Below are positions 6,488 to 10,904 of a stretch of 30,832 bases of DNA, piece after piece. How positions within the stretch are numbered: position 1 is the first letter of the stretch; each line of letters begins with the position of its first letter. The position numbers and the translations under genes were made by a program. Below the pieces are notes generated by a model. It did no database searches, was not told where the DNA came from, and saw nothing but the letters and a program-made list of their open reading frames with translations. Where the stretch lies: positions 1 to 30,832 of the IMG/VR virus record IMGVR_UViG_3300047300_000469, one strand, 5' to 3'. Origin of the DNA: a virus.

Positions 6488-7242
6488 ATGTAAATATCTC
6501 TGTCTAGCCACATTTGGTAGTAGTCAGATTTAGCCTGGTACCCAGATGGCATCTCTTTTGATACATCAGCATCAAATGCTCTTCGTCTAGCAAACTCTAA
6601 CGAATTAGGAAATCTGGGTGTGTTGAACCCATAAACTGGTTGATTATCCTCTACCCAAGACTCGCCTATGGCATACCGATGTGACATGTGCTGAAGCTGG
6701 TCTAGGGCTATAGACTCCCCTAATGCTAGAGGTCCAGATACGTAGAAAGGGTGGCGACCATATTTCCCTTTGAGAACTCGATCAACCACTAGATCAATGA
6801 CAGTTTTTAGTAGACTGTCTCCAGGAGATTTTACCCAAAAAAGAGTATTAGCAGTAGTAAATACCGAATTTCCTGGCTCTATTTGTATATCCCTGAAAAA
6901 TATTAATTCTGTTTCTTCGCTCAGTGAGCCTACCCAGTCCATCTTAGATATGGAGACAGTCAGATCAAAATACCAGCCACCATAGATATATAAAATACAG
7001 TATCTAGCTAAGTCTGCTTTAAACGCCAGTGGTTTAAGTTTATTGAAGGCTTCTAATACAGGAGGATCAAAGAAATTTTTTAACAAATATACGACATCAT
7101 CCATTACCCATAGTCGATGCCGACCAGTGCTAGCCTTTCTGATATCCAGTATTCTTCTATCAGGGACTCTATCTACTTCACCATCTACTAGAAGTATTTG
7201 ATGTATTAGTGACTGTCGGATAGCGCTTTGTATATCTGTCAC
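6484..7242 (-). CDS. GT32-like glycosyltransferase, degenerate D-x-D
   Basis: A 252-residue protein with the GT32 (sugar-binding DXD) pattern: an early SLIHQILL segment, then FKADLARYCILYIYGGWYFD around residues 74-93. In the family this ends in Y-x-D-x-D; here it reads YFDLT (D93, T95), so the second acidic residue is lost. It may be inactive, or use a nearby acid. The GTG start at 7242 overlaps the WhiB stop (GTGA) and leaves the conserved IHQ segment where the family expects it, so the start is well supported. Being coupled to a WhiB-like gene suggests shared expression. Its stop lies inside the end of the convergent GT2 gene. Confidence 0.72.
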   Translation of the reverse strand: MTDIQSAIRQSLIHQILLVDGEVDRVPDRRILDIRKASTGRHRLWVMDDVVYLLKNFFDPPVLEAFNKLKPLAFKADLARYCILYIYGGWYFDLTVSISKMDWVGSLSEETELIFFRDIQIEPGNSVFTTANTLFWVKSPGDSLLKTVIDLVVDRVLKGKYGRHPFYVSGPLALGESIALDQLQHMSHRYAIGESWVEDNQPVYGFNTPRFPNSLEFARRRAFDADVSKEMPSGYQAKSDYYQMWLDRDIYI

Positions 7243-7694
7243 TTCGAGTTTTTTCTCTGAGAATGATAAACATCCACGGCATTGGCACTAGTTCGACTTT
7301 GCCACGTAAACTTGCAATCCAGGCATGTAACTATACGCATGGTGGCCCACCTGCCGCCGTCAGGTCTTTCGACGGTATCAGTAGATAAGCTACTAGTCTT
7401 TGCCCTACAATTAGGGCACAATGGGAATCGTTTGTATCGCATCTCTTGCCCATCCCAGTTCACTGACAAGGTATTTCTAATCTTTTTAGAGTCCAACCCT
7501 CCCCAAATACCGTTAAGTTGCTTATTGTCTAGTGCCCACTTAATACATTCTTGTCTAACGGGGCATATAGCGCATAGCTTCTTTGCTTCCCACTGCTGAG
7601 ATGCCTTATTAGAGAAGAAATTATCTATTTTGTCAGAGTTCTCTAGCTTACCGCATTCAGAATCTTCATGCCAATCTGGACCATCAAAAAACAT
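7239..7694 (-). CDS. WhiB-like regulator with C-terminal zinc ribbon
   Basis: Transcription factor of the actinobacteria-specific WhiB (Wbl) family. With the ATG at 7694 (GAGG just upstream), the iron-sulphur cysteines are C14, C41, C44 and C50 (C-x26-C-x2-C-x5-C), followed by WAL and the family turn GIWGG at 62-66. After the Wbl core it continues for about 80 residues with a second set, C93-x2-C96 and C124-x2-C127, spaced like a zinc ribbon. Wbl proteins seen in phages are usually short, so this fusion is unusual. A longer frame starts at TTG 7721, but that start has no good ribosome site and a 38-nt overlap. Wbl proteins act with the host primary sigma factor, so it may redirect host or phage promoters. 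It overlaps the next gene by GTGA. Confidence 0.85.
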   Translation of the reverse strand: MFFDGPDWHEDSECGKLENSDKIDNFFSNKASQQWEAKKLCAICPVRQECIKWALDNKQLNGIWGGLDSKKIRNTLSVNWDGQEMRYKRFPLCPNCRAKTSSLSTDTVERPDGGRWATMRIVTCLDCKFTWQSRTSANAVDVYHSQRKNSK

Positions 7695-8022
7695 AGGGAA
7701 CCTCGATAAATGTTGCATCAATATCTAGCATAGGGTCATCAGACTCACAGAATACTAGGCATGACTCGTCGCCATCTTCATAGTAGTACCCTCCCTGGAC
7801 TTCCGTCGACTCTTCAATAAGTCGATATCCGTCACCTAGGGATTCGGCCACGCCTTCACGCTGTAGTTGTCTAGCTAAATTAGCACGAGCAGTAGAGTCT
7901 TCTGCAAGGTCAATCCATGTATCAGTGAATAACACTACAGAGTCTGAGTGTAGACTTCTAGGGAATCCGTCACCCTCCCAGATTATCCAATCAGGGCCAG
8001 AATATTTTCTTGATATCTTCAC
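7684..8022 (-). CDS. Unknown acidic protein
   Basis: A 112-residue, strongly acidic protein with no membrane segment and no motif I recognise. It contains a patch of aromatic and acidic residues (GGYYYEDGDESCLVF) in its second half. The start is GTG at 8022. I see no Shine-Dalgarno; the upstream 48 bp are very AT-rich, so leaderless translation is possible. Its 3' end overlaps the WhiB gene by 11 nt, so the two are probably made together. An acidic partner beside a DNA-binding regulator could be a cofactor or DNA mimic, but nothing in the sequence proves this. Confidence 0.6.
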   Translation of the reverse strand: MKISRKYSGPDWIIWEGDGFPRSLHSDSVVLFTDTWIDLAEDSTARANLARQLQREGVAESLGDGYRLIEESTEVQGGYYYEDGDESCLVFCESDDPMLDIDATFIEVPYVF

Positions 8023-8070
8023 ATTTTAATATTAATATCTACAGATTAGACTATACCGTAAATTACAAAA
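8023..8070 (-). promoter_or_regulatory. AT-rich gap, possible leaderless promoter
   Basis: This 48-bp gap between two - strand genes is very AT-rich. TAATAT lies 6 nt before the GTG at 8022, the right distance for a leaderless start, but I find no convincing -35 box 16-18 bp upstream. It may only be a weak internal promoter. Confidence 0.2.
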
Positions 8071-8565
8071 TTAATTTACTGGCCACACGTAATCATAAGA
8101 GTCTGGTCTAGTGCCAGTATCCTCTGGCCAACCCCACTGGGAGTACCAGTCATAGTCTTTAGTTAGGAGCGCCAATCTGTGGCTAGAGGCTACTTCTTTG
8201 AATTTATTCATGTCAGATACCCATGAAGGCGGAGTTGACATTGTACCACTGAGTATCCCATTGCGAATTGCAGTTTGAATAGTAGCTTTGGCCTTATCAC
8301 CAATCGTAGAGTTATAGCCTCGGCTCTGCCATTCACTTACCATTGCTTGGATATATAGGTAGAGAGACATCTCGTGACCACGCCACATCTTGACAGCTGG
8401 ATGATTGACCCAGCCCTTAGGTGCGCGATGGTTGCCTTGCGGATCTAGCTCCAGGAGGGTCATCAATATCTGCCAGCCTTCTAGGGCTTGCTTGTTGAGA
8501 CGGGCACGGTCTAGCGTGCGAGCAATGTCTTCAAAAGACGAAGTAAGCGGTACAAATGTCTGCAT
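8071..8565 (-). CDS. MSMEG_6728-like (pyrimidine dimer glycosylase type) protein
   Basis: A 164-residue protein matching the MSMEG_6728 / Pyr_excise-like pattern: MQTFVP at the start, RTLDRARLNKQALEGWQIL, then NHPAVKMWRGHE and a later YLYIQAMVSEWQSRGY helix. The family is annotated as pyrimidine-dimer DNA glycosylase because it resembles T4 endonuclease V, but activity of this branch is not established to my knowledge. A repair or DNA-modification role would suit the neighbouring replication genes. The ATG at 8565 sits exactly in the centre of a perfect 14-bp inverted repeat and 6 nt after a -10 box, so the mRNA is probably leaderless and the gene individually controlled. Confidence 0.75.
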   Translation of the reverse strand: MQTFVPLTSSFEDIARTLDRARLNKQALEGWQILMTLLELDPQGNHRAPKGWVNHPAVKMWRGHEMSLYLYIQAMVSEWQSRGYNSTIGDKAKATIQTAIRNGILSGTMSTPPSWVSDMNKFKEVASSHRLALLTKDYDWYSQWGWPEDTGTRPDSYDYVWPVN

Positions 8566-8587
8566 AAGATAAATGTACCGCTTACTT
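8541..8587. repeat. Perfect 14-bp inverted repeat centred on a start codon
   Basis: AAGTAAGCGGTACA at 8541-8554 is matched without error by its reverse complement at 8574-8587. The 19-nt gap has the ATG of the MSMEG_6728-like gene (8563-8565) at its middle. Arm centres are 33 bp apart, close to three helical turns. One arm covers codons in the gene start; the other covers part of the -10 box and the -35/-10 spacer. The layout fits a two-site operator for a dimeric or looped repressor. An RNA hairpin is less likely, because the upstream arm would not be transcribed from the promoter seen here. Confidence 0.75.
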
Positions 8588-8600
8588 ATAAGTTTGTCAA
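8572..8600 (-). promoter_or_regulatory. Consensus-like promoter giving a leaderless mRNA
   Basis: On the - strand a perfect TTGACA (8600-8595) is followed by a 17-bp spacer and TACATT (8577-8572). The ATG at 8565 begins 6 nt after the -10, so transcription should start at or next to the start codon. No Shine-Dalgarno is present, as expected for a leaderless gene. The inverted repeat at 8541-8587 covers the -10 and most of the spacer, so a bound protein would block this promoter. Confidence 0.6.
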
Positions 8601-8601
8601 G

Positions 8602-8859
8602 TTATTGACCGAATGCTTTTACCACATTCTGCTTTAGTGTCCCAAACACTGTAACGACTAGCTCATCGGAGTCCATATTTTGTGCGATATCCGCATAAGT
8701 TTTAGCCTCAGGGTAGCTGATTTTAAACTCTAACCCAACCTGCTCGATTACCTGTTCAACTGGTATACCTAAAAATGCTGCAATTTTAGTCGTTGCCACT
8801 TCTTTAGCTTCAGACAGTGTACTAGCAGAAATTTTTAGTTCAAAAGAAGCCCTGATCAT
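8602..8859 (-). CDS. Small unknown protein
   Basis: An 85-residue mixed alpha/beta protein (strand MIRASFELKISA, a Ser/Ala-rich helix, a second strand LEFKISY, a helix with YADIAQNM, then strand ELVVTVFGTL). The alternation suggests a small compact fold, perhaps ferredoxin-like, but I recognise no family. The ATG overlaps the preceding stop as TAATG, so it is translated with the two genes before it. It ends 36 nt before the promoter-controlled MSMEG_6728-like gene. No function assigned. Confidence 0.6.
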   Translation of the reverse strand: MIRASFELKISASTLSEAKEVATTKIAAFLGIPVEQVIEQVGLEFKISYPEAKTYADIAQNMDSDELVVTVFGTLKQNVVKAFGQ

Positions 8860-9290
8860 TATTTAGAAACTCGCTTCTCTAGCTTATATGGGGAATAGTG
8901 AACGCCATTTAGGGTAGGACTTTTCGAGTCAGTACTATTGAAGATAACATCCCCATAGCGAACTGCTACTACCGTACCCTTACGCCCATTGTGGATAGAC
9001 CCTAACTTATCGGTGAATCCGTCTGACTTAACTCGCACGACATCCCCGACAGTTACCTGCCCAGGCATCAATGGAATCCAAGTATAGTCAGAGTCATCTT
9101 CTTCCTCTGCTATAGAGTACCCACGGGCTAGCTGTGAGAATACACTTAGAGTCTCTTCAGTTAAATTATCGCTTAGCTTAGGGATAGTCTCCCAAGCCTC
9201 TAAAAGCTTCAAGATAGCTTTCCCTGACCCGACTTTTACCCTAGCAGCTTCAAGCTGTTGGATTACCCAATCTTTATTAATTTCTGGCAT
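8859..9290 (-). CDS. Unknown protein with SH3/KOW-like C-terminal half
   Basis: A 143-residue protein. The first about 70 residues are helical and acidic. The rest is beta-rich, with VGDVVRVKSDG, then GRKGTVVAVRYGDVIF and a final HYSPYKLEKR strand. This looks like a small SH3 barrel of the KOW or nucleic-acid/ribosomal-protein type, but no specific family is recognised. It is joined by TAATG overlaps to the glycosyltransferase before it (9288-9292) and the 85-residue protein after it (8857-8861). Confidence 0.6.
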   Translation of the reverse strand: MPEINKDWVIQQLEAARVKVGSGKAILKLLEAWETIPKLSDNLTEETLSVFSQLARGYSIAEEEDDSDYTWIPLMPGQVTVGDVVRVKSDGFTDKLGSIHNGRKGTVVAVRYGDVIFNSTDSKSPTLNGVHYSPYKLEKRVSK

Positions 9291-10294
9291 TAGTCACTCT
9301 CCTTACTAGAGTTTACCACTATATTTTTTATAACATCAGACGATGACTCAAAAGCCTCGAGCCCATTTATGTAGGATACGCGCTGCATGGTAGATAGATG
9401 CTGCCTCTGAGCTGGAGACATATCTTCTACCTGATATGCCAGAGTTGCCCAGCTAGGGTCCAGATTGCCAGCGTCCTGCCAGTAGGTGACAATCGGAGTA
9501 GACGAGTTTAATGCTTGAACTACCCTATAGTTCCACCATGTCAGACTGTTTCTCTCCTGAGGAGGGATAAGTATACCGATGCTACCTACTATTACGTCCA
9601 TAGCGCGAGCGTCATCACTAGTTCTTCCAAGCTTAGTTGGTTGAATTGGGAGGACGATCGACTTAGCTACGTAGGATAGCCAAGAACTTTTAATATTCTC
9701 CGCTGCCCATACGTCTGCTCTGGAGAAGTTAACCGACCCAGTTCCGATCAATGAGACATCAAAGTTTAATCCGACCATCTCACTCTCCGAAGCAAATCCA
9801 AGAGCATCTCGCACTCTTGCCTCGGAATTCCACGGCACTGCTGGATATAGCAATCTAGGCCACAGATCAGAAGACATCTTAGCTGAAACAGACTCTAGCA
9901 TGGCTTTCTTGCGGGTGGCAGCATCAAAACCTTCCCGCTTAGAGTAGTAGGAGCCAAGTAAAATGTTATAGTCCCTTGACACAGCATTGATACTATTTCT
10001 GTATTGCCACACCTGCGGACTATCGACTACCACGCTCAGTCGCGGACTGTGGAACATGATGTCTAGCACATTTAATGCCCCGTAAAGCTTATTTGCACTT
10101 ATAGAAGTTGGAGGCAGTAGTCCAAAGATAACGTGATCAAACTGCGCTAAGTACTCAGATGTCCAATCAACACTAGGTGACGCCCAAGTAACCTGAGCAA
10201 ATTTAGAAATCTGATCTGCAAGCACGCTGAAAAAACTTACATTAGCAGGCTGTTTGCAGTGATGGGATCCCATCCCTGTGAAGAGTACTTTCAT
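9290..10294 (-). CDS. GT-B-like glycosyltransferase (probable)
   Basis: A 334-residue protein from the ATG at 10294, which has AAAGGG six bases upstream; the open frame reaches 10348, but that stretch runs through the terminator stem. The N-terminus (MKVLFTGMGSHHCKQP) looks like a Rossmann first strand, with a histidine pair often seen in GT-B donors. The second half has NYRVVQALNSSTPIVTYWQDAG, which fits the C-terminal sugar-nucleotide half of GT-B enzymes. Similarity is by fold pattern and I see no diagnostic motif, so other Rossmann enzymes remain possible. T4 beta-glucosyltransferase has the same fold, so DNA sugar modification is one option. First gene of a three-gene coupled unit. Confidence 0.5.
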   Translation of the reverse strand: MKVLFTGMGSHHCKQPANVSFFSVLADQISKFAQVTWASPSVDWTSEYLAQFDHVIFGLLPPTSISANKLYGALNVLDIMFHSPRLSVVVDSPQVWQYRNSINAVSRDYNILLGSYYSKREGFDAATRKKAMLESVSAKMSSDLWPRLLYPAVPWNSEARVRDALGFASESEMVGLNFDVSLIGTGSVNFSRADVWAAENIKSSWLSYVAKSIVLPIQPTKLGRTSDDARAMDVIVGSIGILIPPQERNSLTWWNYRVVQALNSSTPIVTYWQDAGNLDPSWATLAYQVEDMSPAQRQHLSTMQRVSYINGLEAFESSSDVIKNIVVNSSKESD

Positions 10295-10317
10295 AGTATG
10301 CCCTTTATGAAAATAGA

Positions 10318-10345
10318 CGGGGGGCACCTTATTAGATGCCCCCCG
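10318..10345 (-). terminator. Strong GC-rich hairpin after SSB gene
   Basis: CGGGGGGCA (10318-10326) pairs perfectly with TGCCCCCCG (10337-10345), a 9-bp stem with a 10-nt loop. It lies 13 nt past the stop of the ssDNA-binding protein and is followed on the - strand by TCTATTTT, a partial U tract. It should end or strongly reduce transcription of the recombination operon before the glycosyltransferase. No separate promoter is evident in the 23 bp before the next gene, so some read-through is likely. Confidence 0.78.
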
Positions 10346-10358
10346 CATATTTAGTTAA

Positions 10359-10904
10359 TTAGAACGGAGTGTCTGCACTAGCAATAGGCGCTGCAGGTGC
10401 AGGGGCAGGTGCTGGAGCAGGGGCAGGTGCTGGAGCAGGGGCAGGTGCTGCTGCCGCTGGAGCTGCCGATGCAGCTGGCGCTGCCGCGGCCTGAGACGGG
10501 AAGTAGCTCTTGATCTCGTTACCCTGCTTGCCGTTGTAGGTTCGGATAGCAATCTTACCGCGGAATGAACGGTGAGCTAGAGCCTGCTCTACCTGAGCAG
10601 GCGTTGGGTTTGCCATCCAATAGTCCTTGCTAAGGCCAAGTGCTGCACCCTTACCAAAGAAGATGTTCATTGCAGTCTCGTTGTCTGGAGAGACAACCCA
10701 CTGATCCCAGACACGGCGCTTAGCGTATGGGCCACCCTGAACTTCAGTGGTGATCTTGAACATGAGCTTGCCAGTAGAGGTCTGAGTTGCCTGAGCCTCT
10801 ACTACCTTCAACTCGTAGTCACCCTCTGGGAGTGGCTCGTAGTTAGTGTTTGCTGCAGCATCGCCAGCCTTCTGGACGAGTTCTGCGAAATTGACCGTAG
10901 TCAT
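10359..10904 (-). CDS. DUF669-type ssDNA-binding protein with SSB-like tip
   Basis: A 181-residue single-stranded DNA-binding protein. Residues about 20-130 form an OB-like DUF669 region (LPEGDYELKVVEAQ, LMFKITTEVQGGPY, RRVWDQWVVS, GKIAIRTYNG). A low-complexity Ala/Pro linker follows (about 136-170), and the chain ends in DTPF, close to the acidic DDDIPF tip by which bacterial SSB recruits partner proteins. The plan copies bacterial SSB: DNA-binding core, flexible linker, interaction tip. It directly follows the RecA-like ATPase gene (6-nt gap), the usual pairing for Sak4-type recombinases. A GC-rich terminator follows. The linker is encoded by an 18-bp tandem repeat and may vary in length between relatives. 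Confidence 0.8.
   Translation of the reverse strand: MTTVNFAELVQKAGDAAANTNYEPLPEGDYELKVVEAQATQTSTGKLMFKITTEVQGGPYAKRRVWDQWVVSPDNETAMNIFFGKGAALGLSKDYWMANPTPAQVEQALAHRSFRGKIAIRTYNGKQGNEIKSYFPSQAAAAPAASAAPAAAAPAPAPAPAPAPAPAPAPAAPIASADTPF
10402..10450 (-). repeat. 18-bp tandem repeat in SSB linker, about 2.7 copies
   Basis: On the + strand the unit GGGGCAGGTGCTGGAGCA occurs at 10402-10419 and 10420-10437, then a partial copy to 10450. It encodes the alternating Ala-Pro linker. Units of 18 bp keep the frame, so slippage would only lengthen or shorten the linker. Confidence 0.85.

Follow-up and report, generated by a model that had tools for sequence, protein, structure and literature searches.

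The dimer glycosylase gene and its putative internal promoter

The window, a 30,832-nucleotide stretch of viral DNA (IMG/VR record IMGVR_UViG_3300047300_000469), contains a minus-strand gene whose product resembles pyrimidine dimer DNA glycosylases. The protein scored 66.4 bits against Pyr_excise (PF03013), above the curated cut-off of 23, and 93.4 bits over the full length of the MSMEG_6728 family model (NF038085), below that model's cut-off of 100; it is a near relative of NF038085 and not a formal member. Two further genes follow it in an operon, and a perfect inverted repeat surrounds its start codon. The features of the locus are as follows:

8071-8565, minus strand: Pyr_excise/MSMEG_6728-family protein, pyrimidine dimer DNA glycosylase-like (PF03013), from profile matches
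7684-8022, minus strand: conserved 112-aa protein, second operon gene, from gene-order comparison
7239-7721, minus strand: WhiB domain protein with a conserved cysteine-rich C-terminal extension, third operon gene, from profile and comparison
8602-8859, minus strand: upstream co-directional gene of 85 aa, ending 36 nt before the ATG
8595-8600, minus strand: -35 hexamer TTGACA of the putative internal promoter, from promoter scan and comparison
8572-8577, minus strand: putative -10 hexamer TACATT, 17 nt from the -35 and 6 nt before the ATG
8574-8587, minus strand: 5' arm as transcribed, AAGTAAGCGGTACA; its core GTAAGCGGTACA is invariant in all dyad phages
8541-8554, minus strand: 3' arm, TGTACCGCTTACTT, covering the last bases of codon 4 and codons 5-8 (F V P L T)
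8563-8565, minus strand: ATG start codon, placed in the apical loop when read-through RNA adopts its predicted hairpin
8567-8569, minus strand: inner helix, 5' side, TCT in the window and TGTTT in the other nine dyad phages
8559-8561, minus strand: inner helix, 3' side, AGA in the window and AAACA in the other dyad phages

As the sequence-only reading had described, the arms at 8541-8554 (AAGTAAGCGGTACA) and 8574-8587 (TGTACCGCTTACTT) are exact reverse complements of 14 bp, separated by 19 nt and with centres 33 bp apart, and the ATG (8565-8563) occupies the exact middle of the gap. The symmetry extends inward imperfectly, giving 21-nt arms (86%) that lie 5 nt apart. No inverted repeat in the window with a gap of up to 60 nt has longer arms. 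A longer arm arose in one of 60 third-order Markov shuffles of the window, in which arms of at least 12 occurred at about 0.1 per shuffle; the conservation in nine other phage contigs described below is stronger support for the dyad than these chance statistics.

Read on the minus strand, the gene start is TTGACA-AACTTATAAGTAAGCGG-TACATT-TATCTT-ATG-CAG-ACA-TTT-GTA-CCG-CTT-ACT. The putative promoter, TTGACA-17-TACATT ending 6 nt before the ATG, is present as originally read; it matches the consensus at 10 of 12 positions and is the top promoter-like site within 7500-10500. The first four bases of the -10 hexamer lie inside the 5' arm, which is upstream of the expected transcription start. All dyad loci have a -10 of the form TACA(T/G)T, and no Shine-Dalgarno sequence precedes the ATG in the dyad clade. 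TTGAC stands exactly at -35 relative to the ATG in 48 family-1 loci, most of them without the dyad. This fixed spacing gives strong comparative support for a leaderless message and bears out the promoter geometry proposed for the window. One clade of dyad-free loci with leaderless promoters (L212-L233) carries, immediately ahead of the ATG, a conserved block (ACTGCTANCTTNTAGNT) that is longer than a -10 requires.

Every dyad genome has the same gene order: Sak4-like ATPase, c14, c15, c9, c10, the promoter and dyad, dimer glycosylase, c11, and WhiB with its C-terminal extension (genes in IMG/VR contigs being simple ORF calls made in this analysis). Past the WhiB gene, most dyad genomes continue with genes facing the opposite way. 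The last three genes of this order are also present in DSL-LC01, a metagenome-assembled actinobacterial phage (host prediction: PMC10611076). Since a terminator scan found no terminator-like site on the minus strand in the stretch from the 85-aa gene to the ATG, transcripts of that gene would be expected to run into the dyad.

Conservation of the arms in related phages

We compared the locus with 80 loci carrying related genes in viral contigs. Nine have the same dyad (L002, L004-L007, L010, L024, L036 and L039), and the dyad-bearing set is a group of actinobacterial phages from fresh water. When IMG/VR was scanned directly for the dyad, the same nine contigs came back with one further match (L088), which lies in an apparently repetitive structural gene and was taken as chance. 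The dyad occurs once per genome (genomes of 12-136 kb), and 724 kb contain no other inverted repeat of at least 12 bp that sits at a start codon and has a 19-nt gap.

In nine non-redundant sequences, 12 of 12 upstream-arm columns are invariant, as against three of the remaining 17 columns in the -29 to -1 region (Fisher 9e-6, a descriptive value only, as the compared sequences were selected for possession of the dyad). Synonymous differences in codons 4-8, which hold the downstream arm, number 0/172 in the dyad set; gene windows average 43%, and the same codons in four dyad-free groups show 26-50%. Most pairs of dyad-phage glycosylase genes share 68-79% of their bases, with 36-60% of same-residue codons differing. 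Divergence of the flanks and of the remaining gene sequence shows that shared recent ancestry does not account for arm conservation, and both arms are under selection. The sequence-only reading would have been refuted by arms that are not conserved in close relatives, and it passes this check: the arms are kept where the flanks have diverged.

These comparisons bear on the possibility that the dyad is a mutational by-product, namely an inverted copy made by template switching and inherited without function. The 3' arm doubles as ordinary coding sequence (VPLT) from which the 5' arm could have been copied, and three changes on the gene tree suffice for the distribution of the dyad; L001 and L003, close protein relatives, lack the upstream arm, L003 within the same gene order. 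However, arms that stay unchanged across genes as divergent as these, next to promoter bases that have changed, make a by-product very improbable and already disfavoured.

The same invariance would fit a DNA operator, in which inverted sites of 11-12 bp (GTAAGCGGTACA, itself GTA-N5-TAC), three helical turns apart, let a phage or host repressor cover the -10 and early codons and shut the promoter. As an operator would require, both half-sites are invariant at a fixed spacing (19-nt gap, 33 bp between centres), synonymous sites included and with no swapped pairs, and the site overlaps the -10. Searches for a regulator and for further sites speak against it. By presence or absence, no phage gene family is confined to the dyad phages, several of the compared genomes being partial, and no dyad genome has further copies of the dyad at other promoters, nor do other IMG/VR genes carry it beyond chance. 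The WhiB protein encoded two genes downstream, which had been offered as a guess at the regulator, was discarded as the binder since the same operon, WhiB included, occurs in phages without the dyad.

A genome-wide regulon was rejected as well, there being no second arm copy except one-mismatch matches; as examined in three genomes, these lie at a polymerase gene offset encoding the same VPLT peptide. For a host regulon, the sole matches in 84,980 genomes were two copies of a repeat in one Rhodospirillaceae assembly, taken as chance; this interspersed repeat (L093:7769-7814 and L094:1464-1509) has the same 11-bp inverted arms (GTAAGCGGTAC) with a 24-nt gap, apparently by coincidence. Matches of a promoter-plus-arm scan outside the dyad loci sit in other sequence contexts and were likewise attributed to chance. 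One dyad phage contains another perfect 14-bp inverted repeat (TATTATCAGAAAAA, gap 17; G009:C1:40254-40298), about 54 bp before the start of a helicase gene.

A predicted hairpin and its recurrence with other arms

RNA transcribed through the dyad is predicted to fold into a hairpin of -22 to -26 kcal/mol, with the AUG in an apical loop of 5-6 nt and codons 4-8 in the stem; RNA beginning at the ATG is predicted to be unable to form it. No Rfam family matched the window above its gathering score. Within the predicted hairpin, TGTTT of the discriminator pairs with AAACA of codons 2-3 in nine of the ten dyad phages, an inner helix (UGUUU/AAACA) found in 0 of 38 dyad-free relatives with the same promoter spacing. 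In the window this helix is TCT/AGA, with a compensatory C-G in place of U-A (pair 8568/8560, T-A in the other dyad phages), and in L039 it is displaced by one base; among ten related dyad phages, these changes represent at most a few independent events. The outer 12 pairs contain no swapped pair anywhere in the dyad clade, and the sole change in this 12-bp core is G-C to G·U in L039. The -10 fixes two or three of the outer pairs and the VPLT peptide fixes others, leaving three or four free. An inner helix with a compensatory change would be unexpected of two operator half-sites.

In related phages, the same gene is preceded by different dyads that keep one arm in the promoter and the other at the start region: the 5' arm lies in the spacer or discriminator, and the 3' arm over the Shine-Dalgarno sequence or ATG. 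DSL-LC01-like leaders read TATAAT-GTAGCC-AACGACAAAGGAC-GGCTAC-ATG, with GTAACC/GGTTAC, GATACC/GGTATC or GGTATCC/GGATACC as other arm pairs, and further dyads of this clade are GTGTGGT/ACCACAC over the -10, GTCCTTCTGT/ACAGAAGGAC around the -10, and AGTCTGT/ACAGACT. In these examples the 3' arm adjoins or overlaps the Shine-Dalgarno sequence or start codon, and a transcription start six or seven bases past the -10 would leave the 5' arm outside the local transcript. Dyads of the same plan occur in family 1 (AACCCTTTCT/AGAAAGGGTT in L014, L019 and L034; ATATTAGTAA/TTACTAATAT in L016 and L017). In other relatives, L351, L362 and L402 among them, the stem includes the AU of the start codon. The pair AACCCTTTCT...AGAAAGGGTT amounts to a second dyad family around the -10 of the same gene. 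The start-region dyads of L421 and L377, located some 45 bp ahead of the gene start (position 2501), are particularly long: GCATAGTCTGT/ACAGACTATGC (11 bp, with the start codon in the stem) and CGTCCTTCTGTTG/CGACAGAAGGACG (13 pairs, one of them G·U, over the Shine-Dalgarno sequence).

Arms pair better with their own partner than with arms exchanged between phages, both in the DSL-LC01-like clade (p<0.00025) and in family 1 without the dyad set (p ~0.001). When the 3' half was reversed as a control, the own-arm effect vanished or shrank and was mostly flat, with a single window of that control itself reaching p=0.0085. Because 31 pooled DSL-LC01 promoters show no such own-arm pairing, the pairing belongs to this gene. 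A clean sub-alignment covers six distinct DSL-LC01-like leaders: 48/48 cells pair, three pairs carry a change in both partners, and the two changes confined to one partner each give G·U; sliding the partner reduces pairing to 17-56%. Judged by these compensatory changes, pairing rather than sequence is conserved in the DSL-LC01-like clade. An asymmetry of wobble pairs between sense and antisense was not significant (p=0.11). Between about 24 and 42 kb of L455 (DSL-LC01), a recurrent promoter consensus, TCTAAAGATGTTATAATAGAATCAACA, followed by CGACGAAAGGACA, stands ahead of many small genes and looks like an early-promoter class of these phages.

Since relatives retain the layout with unrelated arms, in one clade by compensatory change, what is conserved is probably base pairing and not a site of fixed sequence for a protein. 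Together with a site found once per genome and the lack of a gene family restricted to dyad phages, this tells against the clamp, a regulator bound to both arms, that was proposed when the dyad was first noticed.

The hairpin could also serve read-through RNA in another role: it might terminate transcription of the upstream genes or insulate them, provide a processing site of the RNase III type, or stabilise the mRNA. It is strong (z = -6.5) and stands right behind the last upstream gene, where no alternative terminator-like site is found on that strand before the ATG. However, it does not combine the G+C-rich stem, short loop and U-tract of an intrinsic terminator: no U-tract follows the 3' arm (UUCGUCUUUUG), and the terminator scan did not list it. 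The stems of relatives, 6-8 bp long and adjoining the ATG, also have no U-tract, and no substitute terminator is in view in dyad-free relatives. We consider such roles improbable.

A candidate read-through translation lock

In phage T4, long early RNAs of e, soc, 49 and I-TevI hide the initiation region in a hairpin, whereas late RNAs from local promoters, which do not contain the 5' strand, leave it free (PMC3014915, PMC2988022). The present locus resembles these locks, and that of Aeh1 mobE, in that the start region is complementary to upstream sequence holding the local promoter; the -10 overlaps the 5' arm, and the start is expected at the ATG. In both systems, related phages keep the layout with changed arms. 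The locus differs in belonging to actinobacterial phages with a sigma-70-type promoter instead of a T4 late promoter, and in that the dyad clade has no Shine-Dalgarno sequence, a free transcript predicted to be leaderless and a 3' arm within codons 4-8. To our knowledge, T4-style locks have been described in T-even phages and their relatives; the new element here would be that the unlocked message is leaderless. In the open-access literature we found nothing on this gene or on such a lock in actinophages.

Our findings lean modestly towards an RNA read-through translation lock of this kind at the glycosylase gene. From the dyad, the promoter geometry, their conservation, the recurring layout and the covariation in one clade, we infer a transcription start, read-through, a hairpin in vivo and an effect on translation that would work together as follows. 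The gene sits in a run of co-directional replication genes, yet seems to have its own promoter. RNA arriving from upstream would carry both arms and form the 14-bp hairpin with its inner helix; the stem would take up codons 4-8 and the loop the AUG, preventing initiation or re-initiation. RNA from the internal promoter would start at or near the AUG, without the 5' arm, and be translated in leaderless form. Expression of the gene, and probably also of the coupled WhiB operon behind it, would thus occur only when the internal promoter fires.

Several observations count against the lock. The 12-bp arms are frozen in the dyad clade, and a pure pairing constraint should allow some swaps; a sequence-reading protein, on DNA or on the hairpin, would explain the unswapped outer pairs. 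Without a Shine-Dalgarno sequence, read-through RNA might be poorly translated even when unlocked. A hairpin is absent from many leaderless relatives, L001 and L003 with the same operon being examples, and these presumably manage without one. The non-significant wobble asymmetry and the reversed-half control at p=0.0085 also fall on this side. In addition, transcription that begins further upstream may be limited by a strong terminator-like hairpin at 10317-10346 on the minus strand (13-bp stem, CTATTTTCAT tail), which separates c14 from c15. This hairpin falls within the 5' end of ORF 9290-10348 as called; the ATG near 10294 (MKVLFTGM) is more likely the true start of that ORF.

I-TevI represses itself through an operator over its own late promoter, and its gene also has a hairpin (PMC2988022). 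The two cases are alike in a protein site, here putative, over the local promoter of a nested phage gene with a hairpin, and unlike in that protein and site are known for I-TevI, any protein that binds the dyad being hypothetical. By this analogy, lock and operator can coexist. Because the outer pairs never swap and the two can act together, we keep our preference for the lock a modest one and regard the operator as rather unlikely, though the likeliest of the rival explanations.

In phage lambda, the cI transcript from PRM is leaderless and operators lie on the promoter; these operators recur in sets, upstream of the codons. The present locus shares with PRM/cI a leaderless phage message, as predicted, and candidate sites overlapping the promoter, but its single dyad spans the start codon and has no second copy in the genome.

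We suggest more tentatively that a lock keyed by promoter choice, with hairpin-locked read-through RNA on the one hand and a leaderless message on the other, could control a phage DNA-repair/WhiB operon and have been reinvented with different arms in many actinobacterial phage lineages. If so, the version in actinobacteria-infecting phages would represent an independent origin of the T4-style trick, and the operon of dimer glycosylase, 112-aa protein and WhiB would be marked as needing tight timing. If the leaderless start holds, the locus would offer a natural test of leaderless versus internal initiation, with the same AUG open or closed according to the origin of the RNA. The WhiB protein at 7239-7721 itself has a zinc-ribbon-like, cysteine-rich extension (GGRWATM..V.C..C.F.WQSRTSANAVDAYH) that is strongly conserved in all operon-bearing phages.
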